Of a stretch of 64,000 nucleotides of DNA, positions 14,897 to 16,922 are shown one piece after another. Under the pieces are notes generated by a model that saw nothing but the letters and a program-made list of their open reading frames with translations, was not told where the DNA came from and made no database searches. Each line of letters starts with the position of its first letter. The stretch's first letter is position 1. The stretch is from an uncultured Alphaproteobacteria bacterium. GTDB taxonomy: Bacteria; Pseudomonadota; Alphaproteobacteria; CAAHEQ01; UBA3637. The translations under genes were made by a program, and so were the position numbers. The stretch is from contig CALXXW010000023.1 in NCBI GenBank assembly GCA_944392785.1, positions 1-64,000 of the forward strand, read 5' to 3'.

Positions 14897-15982
14897 TTAG
14901 GAACCTCGGGTATCCTTAACAATAATGCCCCCACCGATGACTGCCTCATCTTTATAAAAAACCGCGGATTGTCCCGGCGTTAAGGCACGTTGAGGCTCGT
15001 CAAAATCTATCCGAATGCGCCCCTCTGCTTCAGGTGTCAACGTTGCTCCGACCGAACGCCCTGTCGAACGATACTTCACCTCTGCCCTCATCGGCGCTGT
15101 TAAAGGAGGTATCAGACCACCCCATACCGTCGCCTCCACCCGGCAAGATTTTTTCAGAACGGCTTCGGCCGTTCCCACGATGACCACATTTTCCTTCGGA
15201 TCCACATCAACAACAAACAACGGCCGTGGATACGATATACCCAGACCTTTTCGTTGTCCTATTGTATAATTCCAAAAACCTTGGTGTTCTCCCAAGACCT
15301 CACCGGTTGTCAGGATAATTTTCCCTGTCCGAGCGGGCTCTTGCAATAAATCATTATAATCACCGGCATAAAAATCTTGACTATCTGCCTTTTCGGCGAC
15401 GGCTAATCCGCGCTCACGCGCCATTTCCCGGACGCGTTCTTTTGTCAAATGTCCCAACGGGAACATGGTTTGAGATAACTGCTCTTGTGTTAAACGGTAA
15501 AGAAAATAACTTTGATCTTTATAAGCATCTATCCCCTTTTTCAAGACGAATCGATTATCTTGTTGTTCAATCCGAGCATAATGTCCCGTTGCAAAAGCAT
15601 CAAAGTTCAAACCGCTTTTTCGTGCCGATTCTAACAACAAACCAAATTTCATTTCAGCATTACATTGAACGCAGGGATTAGGGGTAATACCCTTCAAATA
15701 GGCCTGTTTAAAATAAGCTAAAATCGTTTGTTTATAGACGTCTGATAAATCCAACACATAGACGGGGATATTCTGTTTTTTCCCCCATTCACGGATTTCG
15801 TTTAGCTCGTGTTTTTCTTCGGGACCGTAGCAAGAACGTCCGGCAAGCGTCATATTCGGAATATCTTTATTGTAAATAGACATGGACAATCCGATAACGC
15901 GGTATCCAGCCTCTTTCAACAAAAGAGCCGTCAATGTTGAGTCCACTCCACCGCTTAGCCCGACGGCTATTGTTTTAGACAT
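14897..15982 (-). CDS. mnmA: MnmA-like tRNA 2-thiouridylase, variant active site
   Basis: 361 residues from the ATG at 15982; longer readings would overlap the exchanger gene further. Thiolates U34 of tRNA-Glu/Gln/Lys. The PP-loop SGGVDST (residues 10-16), TPNPCVQCNAEMKFG (C104, C107), ATGHYARI, QSYFLYRL and IGQRKGLG are typical. However the second catalytic Cys (in ...GICFIG of E. coli MnmA) is absent: the region reads ADSQDFYAGDYNDLL. Remaining cysteines are C51 (RSCYG), the CxxC and one near residue 300. This suggests a variant in which C51 and the CxxC do the chemistry, perhaps through an Fe-S cluster (inference). It overlaps the exchanger gene by eight bases. Confidence 0.88.
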   Translation of the reverse strand: MSKTIAVGLSGGVDSTLTALLLKEAGYRVIGLSMSIYNKDIPNMTLAGRSCYGPEEKHELNEIREWGKKQNIPVYVLDLSDVYKQTILAYFKQAYLKGITPNPCVQCNAEMKFGLLLESARKSGLNFDAFATGHYARIEQQDNRFVLKKGIDAYKDQSYFLYRLTQEQLSQTMFPLGHLTKERVREMARERGLAVAEKADSQDFYAGDYNDLLQEPARTGKIILTTGEVLGEHQGFWNYTIGQRKGLGISYPRPLFVVDVDPKENVVIVGTAEAVLKKSCRVEATVWGGLIPPLTAPMRAEVKYRSTGRSVGATLTPEAEGRIRIDFDEPQRALTPGQSAVFYKDEAVIGGGIIVKDTRGS

Positions 15983-16922
15983 AGCCTTGTCCTTGTGTAA
16001 ATAGATACCCGACATAGGTCGCATATGCCACAAGGAATAACACCCCCATGGGACGTGAGATTTCTTTTTTCCAAAACGCTATCCCGATTAACACCAGCGT
16101 CACCACTGTCATTAAGGTCACATCCAGACTCATACCGGAGGGCACCACAACCGGCATAAACAATGCCACCACACCTAAAATAAACAACGCATTATAGATA
16201 TTACTGCCCACGACATTACCCCAAGCCACATCATTATGACCGCGCAAAGCCGACATAACGGAGGTCGCCAGTTCCGGCAACGACGTTCCAACAGCCACAA
16301 TCGTCAGACCGATAACGGCCTCGCTGACTCCCCAATCACGAGCCAAAACAATAGCACTGTCTACCAACAACTTGGCCCCCAGCATGGTTAAGGCGATACC
16401 GACAAGTGCCTTGAATAACGGCTTCCACAGCGGTGTTTTAGCTACGGTGTCGTCAACCTTTTCCGACTTTCCCTTTTGTTCTTTTTTATCTGACAGATAA
16501 GAATAAATAACATATCCTATCAAAAGCCCAACCAGAATCAATCCCATCCATCGATTGATTCCCCCCATAATCAACGCCACAATCAACCCAACCGTTGAAA
16601 TGCCCAAGAAAACGGCATCTCGTCGAAAGGCCTTCAAATCTACACGCACCGGCATAACCAAAGCGGCGGCACCCAAAACCAACAAGATATTGGCGATATT
16701 ACTACCCACCACATTACCGACAGCAATACCCTCCGATTGTTTGATAGCGGCGACCAAGCTTGTCAACAATTCGGGCGTTGATGTTCCGAATCCGACCAGC
16801 GTCAATCCGATCAGCAGACTGGAAACACCCATGCGCCTGGCCACGCCGACGGCTCCAGACACCAACGTATCTCCTCCAAAAGCCAATAAACACAATCCCA
16901 TGACCAAAAATAAGTATGTCAT
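15975..16922 (-). CDS. Na+/Ca2+ exchanger family (YrbG-like) antiporter
   Basis: 315 residues, about ten membrane helices in two inverted halves. Each half carries an alpha-repeat: GFGTSTPELLTSLVAAI with GNVVGSNIANI (residues about 45-80), and AVGTSLPELATSVMSAL with GNVVGSNIYN (about 205-245). The two Glu in TPEL and LPEL are the ion-binding residues of the CaCA superfamily. It probably extrudes Ca2+ in exchange for Na+ or H+. It starts an operon with mnmA (eight-base overlap); SD AAGGAG. Confidence 0.93.
   Translation of the reverse strand: MTYLFLVMGLCLLAFGGDTLVSGAVGVARRMGVSSLLIGLTLVGFGTSTPELLTSLVAAIKQSEGIAVGNVVGSNIANILLVLGAAALVMPVRVDLKAFRRDAVFLGISTVGLIVALIMGGINRWMGLILVGLLIGYVIYSYLSDKKEQKGKSEKVDDTVAKTPLWKPLFKALVGIALTMLGAKLLVDSAIVLARDWGVSEAVIGLTIVAVGTSLPELATSVMSALRGHNDVAWGNVVGSNIYNALFILGVVALFMPVVVPSGMSLDVTLMTVVTLVLIGIAFWKKEISRPMGVLFLVAYATYVGYLFTQGQGYV

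Follow-up and report, generated by a model that had tools for sequence, protein, structure and literature searches.

The mechanism of the tRNA thiolase MnmA is openly disputed, with a persulfide on Cys199 (E. coli numbering) set against a [4Fe-4S] cluster (PMC11784392), and the dispute has so far rested on mutants and on the reconstitution of Cys199-bearing proteins. The window, a 64,000-nucleotide stretch of DNA from an uncultured alphaproteobacterium, raises the question of how an MnmA can work when this cysteine is missing. An earlier note, made from the sequence, had described its mnmA as lacking the second catalytic cysteine and had suggested that the remaining C51, C104 and C107 could hold an Fe-S cluster. 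Below, proteins with C51, CxxC and FY in place of Cys199 are called the FY type. The features of the locus are as follows:

14897..15982, minus strand: mnmA of the FY type, 361 aa, the only MnmA gene of the genome
15938..15955, minus strand: PP-loop SGGVDS (residues 10–15), the ATP-pyrophosphatase motif, read from the sequence
15830..15832, minus strand: codon of C51, the proposed third cluster ligand, from conservation among relatives
15671..15673, minus strand: codon of C104, the first Cys of CxxC (Cys in 78/78 FY sequences)
15662..15664, minus strand: codon of C107, the second Cys of CxxC, aligned with E. coli Cys102 (Cys in 78/78 FY sequences)
15356..15385, minus strand: DSQDFYAGDY (residues 200–209), in place of the canonical DSQDICF with the catalytic Cys
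15990..15994, minus strand: AAGGA, Shine-Dalgarno-like, 7 bases ahead of the ATG at 15982
15975..16922, minus strand: upstream antiporter gene, presumably of the CaCA type (Na+/Ca2+ exchanger-like), overlapping the mnmA start by 8 bases

The window gene encodes a full-length MnmA without Cys199

The gene is a full-length member of the MnmA family that passes the family libraries. Its product scored 372.5 bits against NF001138 (equivalog cut-off 284) and 327.5 bits against TIGR00420 (cut-off 236.95), and the Pfam domains PF03054 (HUP, PP-loop), PF20259 (middle) and PF20258 (C-terminal) were all found above cut-off. The PP-loop residues S10, G11, G12, D14 and S15 are present in 78/78 FY sequences. 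An AlphaFold2 model built from seven sequences (mean pLDDT 84.8) predicts the MnmA fold: the best Foldseek matches were 2det, 2hma, 2der and 2deu, with TM scores of 0.85–0.88 by query length (0.88/0.87 for 2det), and TtuA came next, among other PP-loop enzymes. The pLDDT falls below 50 at residues 42–52 and 200–207, which comprise both key loops, so the model gives no confident placing of C51 near C104 and C107. A second, canonical MnmA in the window genome (G000; 1.12 Mb, 98% complete) was considered and rejected, as a single match lay above the cut-off and the others, at 12.6 and 12.4 bits, lay below it.

Translation of 14897–15982 on the minus strand gives cysteines at positions 51, 104, 107 and 280. 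Residues 200–209 read DSQDFYAGDY, as the earlier note had stated, and in HMMER alignments to 2der and 9hln the GICFIGE stretch of E. coli MnmA lies opposite DFYAGDY of the window protein. The absence of the second catalytic cysteine is thus confirmed by translation, by alignment and by 78 relatives that also lack Cys199. These relatives come from an alignment of 203 rows including the query, which holds 202 distinct MnmA sequences: 78 of the FY type, 122 with Cys199, and two fragments of a single FY gene from contig edges (L049 and L050), which were left out of the counts. A cysteine occupies the 199 position in 0/78 distinct FY sequences and in 122/122 canonical ones, and the loss is therefore not due to chance or sequencing error. 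Eight further FY sequences (seven complete, and an eighth truncated by the end of its contig and lacking its N-terminus) agree in having no Cys199. The stretch aligned to residues 192–212 measures 21 residues in 78/78 FY sequences, 25 in 93/93 canonical sequences from Gastranaerophilales and 23–26 in the other canonical ones; the loss of Cys199 therefore went along with a shorter loop.

C51, C104 and C107 are the invariant cysteines of the FY clade

The three cysteines named in the earlier note proved to be a conserved set, kept in all 78 FY sequences of the alignment and in all seven further complete ones. They are the sole invariant cysteines of the clade (85/85 members with a complete N-terminus). 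The next-best column, C79, is Cys in 60/78 FY sequences and is not Cys in the window protein, and C280, absent from the earlier note, is poorly conserved (Cys in 17/78). CxxC is found in every complete FY sequence, and Asp never occurs at the position of E. coli D99. The loop that carries C51 (residues 34–55) varies in length from 19 to 43 residues across the FY sequences while C51 itself stays constant; a cysteine fixed within a length-variable loop, as one of only three that are invariant, strengthens the three-cysteine idea. The earlier note had counted close homologues with the cysteine at an alternative position as evidence against its proposal. In a sense C51 is such a cysteine, and it supports a moved ligand rather than a refutation.

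The relation of C51 to Cys199 depends on the group examined. In the Gastranaerophilales sets, C51 is present in 49/49 FY and 0/93 canonical sequences; in the canonical proteins the loop is just 6 to 10 residues long and leaves the C51 column empty, and 8/93 of them have some Cys elsewhere within it. The two Gastranaerophilales types therefore mirror each other, with either CxxC and C199 or CxxC and C51. Among the other canonical sequences (from alphaproteobacteria, viral contigs, Thermus and others), a Cys stands at the C51 column in 26/28, with Cys199 also kept, and from this co-occurrence in the alignment C51 may have another, older role. Among the 200 sequences counted, no complete one lacked both C51 and C199.

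Distribution of the FY type

An MnmA match was found in 48 of 57 relatives of the window genome. Of the 33 genomes in the family of the window genome (code f1), 28 had a match, and all 28 read SQDFY instead of SQDICF (27 in full or nearly so, and G017 from a fragment). The five f1 genomes with no MnmA match (G003, G005, G007, G016 and G030, four of them 92–99% complete) are possible cases of s2U34 loss, and, given these 5/33 genomes, mnmA may be dispensable in this family. In 210 evenly sampled alphaproteobacteria, an MnmA match was obtained for 195, 12 of them FY; the motif of each of these 12 was read directly, and most of the remainder were called canonical by score only. The strongest non-fragment, previously unread scores below those 12 (G540 and G651) were read and are canonical. 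Alphaproteobacterial FY sequences occur in seven family codes (f1, f22, f98, f104, f111, f114 and f133).

A scan of named genomes placed the FY type in two alphaproteobacterial metagenome-assembled genomes and in one from horse faeces (L036), which we infer to belong to Gastranaerophilales from the relatives that it shares with the order of the genome of L038. Among 117 Gastranaerophilales genomes, 28 had FY only, 77 canonical only, 9 both (G363, G396, G404, G405, G430, G448, G449, G463 and G466) and 3 neither. The profile scan of viral contigs yielded nine MnmA loci, seven of them distinct and all canonical, and the exact pattern scan of these contigs found none of the FY type. The viral-classed contigs with a canonical MnmA (L162–L170, from IMG/VR, several >100 kb) may be either large phages or host DNA. 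On plasmids, 76 records had a match, all at <60% identity, and the single one read for its motif, from T. thermophilus, is canonical. When the exact DNA pattern was run on 299 Pseudomonadota genomes, only G156 matched besides the window's, at a site outside its D-type MnmA. Such an exact pattern is too stringent for survey work, and a protein search was used instead.

The FY type forms one clade that appears to be exchanged with the canonical enzyme

With the motif columns removed, the FY sequences form one clade, with support of 100/99 (ultrafast bootstrap/SH-aLRT) on a careful tree of 71 rows and an SH-aLRT of 96 on a quick tree of 138 rows. Because the FY type arose once, the complementarity of C51 and C199 counts as a single event, maintained many times. 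Those from alphaproteobacteria are split between two parts of the tree, one of them among Gastranaerophilales, and form a single group in 0% of the bootstrap trees; this split points to transfer between the phyla, in either direction. The alphaproteobacterial FY sequences L030 and L031 (genomes G024 and G010, of the window's own family code), L349, L350 and L352 group with those of Gastranaerophilales, separately from the remaining alphaproteobacterial ones.

If the two types were distributed independently over the 117 Gastranaerophilales genomes, 27 would be expected to have both and 21 neither, versus the 9 and 3 observed (Fisher one-sided 5e-16, with kinship ignored). Mapped onto a recA tree covering 70 of the genomes, FY presence changes 15 times; across 11 independent pairs, the change in the canonical gene was on average opposite in 6.5, the same in 0.7 and without difference in 3.7, giving an exclusion test with a median p of 0.07 (range 0.008–0.45). 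The pattern is that of interchangeable enzymes, which is suggestive, the kinship-aware result being borderline. The same gene order, Fe-dependent repressor–mnmA–MetY-like (a Cys/Met PLP enzyme), is found with a canonical mnmA at L083 (genome G392) and with an FY one at L060 (genome G413). The FY genes are under strong purifying selection, with dN/dS of 0.021–0.096 in 13 pairs; these values are rough, as dS is saturated in several pairs.

Sulfur supply and gene neighborhoods

The window genome has the substrates of MnmA, since its 44 tRNA matches include Lys UUU, Gln UUG and Glu UUC (together with Lys CUU, Gln CUG and Glu CUC). Its sole class-V aminotransferase is the cysteine desulfurase SufS, encoded in a SUF operon (G000:C13:66000-80000, L173) with the order sufB–sufC–sufD-like–sufS–sufT-like. 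The SufD-like gene is short (213 aa) and, at 168.8 bits, falls short of the cut-off for SufD (222). On this gene content, the Fe-S clusters of the organism are probably made by SUF. No match to TusA was found in the genome, which thus lacks the IscS-to-TusA sulfur relay of E. coli. There is a precedent for SUF-derived sulfur in MnmA in the apicoplast of P. falciparum, where SufS provides the sulfur for tRNA modification (PMC10219651).

A relative of the antiporter gene is the upstream neighbor in 22/29 alphaproteobacterial FY loci. In Gastranaerophilales, a divergent gene of one family stands upstream of mnmA at six FY loci (L060, L067, L077, L146, L158 and L161) and at the canonical locus L083. 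The one that was scanned, at L146, is an iron-dependent repressor (Fe_dep_repress and Fe_dep_repr_C), an arrangement of genes suggesting that iron may control mnmA in this group.

A thiocarboxylate carrier resembling TtuB was considered as a general sulfur donor and rejected, since ThiS is rare and no commoner with FY. ThiS-sized genes occur in 13/80 genomes searched, with 0/21 alphaproteobacterial FY genomes among them, and in Gastranaerophilales they occur in 7/35 genomes with FY versus 6/24 without. The only ThiS match in the window genome lies within a 713-aa frame and is below cut-off; long ThiS-matching frames are presumably TGS domains of RelA/SpoT. Some local clustering was nevertheless seen at Gastranaerophilales FY loci: a ThiS-like gene (PF02597) is directly upstream in 5/49 (L062, L063, L064, L069 and L076) and a ThiF-like gene (PF00899) directly downstream in 4/49, versus none of either at 32 non-FY loci having flanks. 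At several of the ThiS-flanked loci, ThiF-like, cysteine-synthase-like or MetY-like genes follow. Such local sulfur-carrier operons around mnmA are possibly worth a separate study.

A putative cluster with a moved ligand

We favor, with a probability of about 0.5, the reading that the FY type is a working third type of MnmA that would make s2U34; its likeliest cofactor would be a [4Fe-4S] cluster in which C51 has taken over from the residue at position 199 as third ligand. The protein would bind tRNA-Lys, -Glu and -Gln (UUN) and adenylate U34 through its PP-loop, as other MnmA proteins do, and would then pass sulfur on by a route that needs no persulfide on Cys199. Its chemistry would most likely be of the NcsA/TtuA and T. 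thermophilus MnmA kind, with a [4Fe-4S] cluster held by three cysteines, the free iron of which would bind hydrosulfide for an attack on the adenylated U34. C51, in the loop after the second strand, would serve as the third ligand instead of Cys199, and SufS would be the sulfur source in the window organism, supplying it either directly or in the form of sulfide. A cluster of this kind has been described for NcsA, in which three cysteines hold a [4Fe-4S] cluster and the free iron can bind hydrosulfide (PMC10067955), and the T. thermophilus MnmA (CxxC-C type) carries a [4Fe-4S] cluster and requires anoxic conditions for activity (PMC8584467). CxxC is the signature of this cluster-bearing type (PMC8584467; PMC11784392). 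In E. coli, Asp99 assists the proposed persulfide route, and a cluster on D99, C102 and C199 has been both claimed and contested (PMC11784392). The cluster route appears the more likely one because the FY type keeps CxxC and never has Asp there, and C51 would be the obvious third ligand.

It is doubtful that the FY type instead uses a cluster-free persulfide, moved to C51, C104 or C107 and resolved by a second cysteine, although three invariant cysteines suffice for a carrier and a resolver and sulfur could be handed over directly, as from the desulfurase YrvO to MnmA in B. subtilis (PMC11784392) or, for tRNA modification, from the apicoplast SufS (PMC10219651). The E. coli variants of C102, C199 and D99 are inactive (PMC11784392), and the FY type lacks two of these three residues; moreover, the CxxC types are those known to carry clusters. 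The dispute over the E. coli cluster (PMC11784392) weakens arguments from analogy in both directions.

Rather improbable, too, is a cluster on C104 and C107 with a non-Cys or outside ligand, C51 being structural or accepting sulfur. A ligand other than Cys has a parallel in the Asp proposed for the E. coli cluster (PMC11784392), candidates exist in D203 (78/78 FY sequences) and Y205 (77/78), and C51 is common in canonical proteins outside the Gastranaerophilales sets. However, D203 is also present in 110/122 canonical sequences and hence is no replacement, Y205 gives way to F in one FY sequence, and neither residue would explain the invariance of C51 in a freely varying loop. That FY proteins have lost thiolation and keep tRNA binding or adenylation for another purpose, or are relics, is very unlikely: a residue essential in E. 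coli is missing and a canonical copy stands beside FY in 9/117 Gastranaerophilales genomes, but the genes are under strong purifying selection, FY is the sole MnmA in 28/117 of these genomes and in the window genome, and it appears to have been repeatedly exchanged with the canonical gene.

Comparison with known types

Two types of MnmA have been published, C-DxxC-C and CC-CxxC-C (PMC11784392). Alignment with the MnmA subfamilies, which the earlier note had proposed as a check, shows that the FY type fits the cysteine pattern of neither. It has the family, fold, PP-loop and CxxC in common with the C-type of Thermus thermophilus (CC-CxxC-C in Shigi's classes), and differs from it in two places: a single Cys stands opposite the CC pair (SCYG in the window protein), and the third Cys (position 199/200) is replaced by FY in a shorter loop. 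The plasmid-borne T. thermophilus MnmA of strain AA3-7 (L171), which is not the studied protein, reads ESCC, PCARCN and SQNLCF at these sites. With the D-type of E. coli (C-DxxC-C) the FY type shares the family and fold (37% identity to 2det in the structural alignment), whereas D99 is replaced by Cys and C199 is missing. C-type MnmA without the CC region has been reported for Campylobacter and Helicobacter (PMC11784392). These proteins, the canonical ones of Gastranaerophilales and the FY type all have three active-site cysteines, and are mirror images of each other: CxxC and C199 without C51 in the former, CxxC and C51 without C199 in the FY type. NcsA and TtuA belong to a different PP-loop subclass and have a weak structural likeness to the window model (TM about 0.35). 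Their third Cys sits in the C199-like region. The likeness proposed here is that in the FY type, as in these enzymes, CxxC and one further Cys would hold a cluster that has a free iron (PMC10067955).

No description of a Cys199-less MnmA clade was found in the open-access literature searched, the scope of which excludes the type-founding paper (Shigi 2020), and the novelty of the FY class, surveyed in alphaproteobacteria and Gastranaerophilales, is provisional. Tentatively, and at a little short of even odds, it would represent a third naturally occurring MnmA class, with the third cluster ligand shifted to C51, that has spread between phyla and repeatedly replaced the canonical enzyme. Automatic annotation as MnmA conceals this altered active site. 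The FY clade, which is under strong selection, is the sole MnmA in many genomes and appears to swap with the canonical enzyme, offers a naturally Cys199-less enzyme on which the disputed mechanism can be tested. If the FY type does make s2U34, the Cys199 persulfide would be no general requirement.
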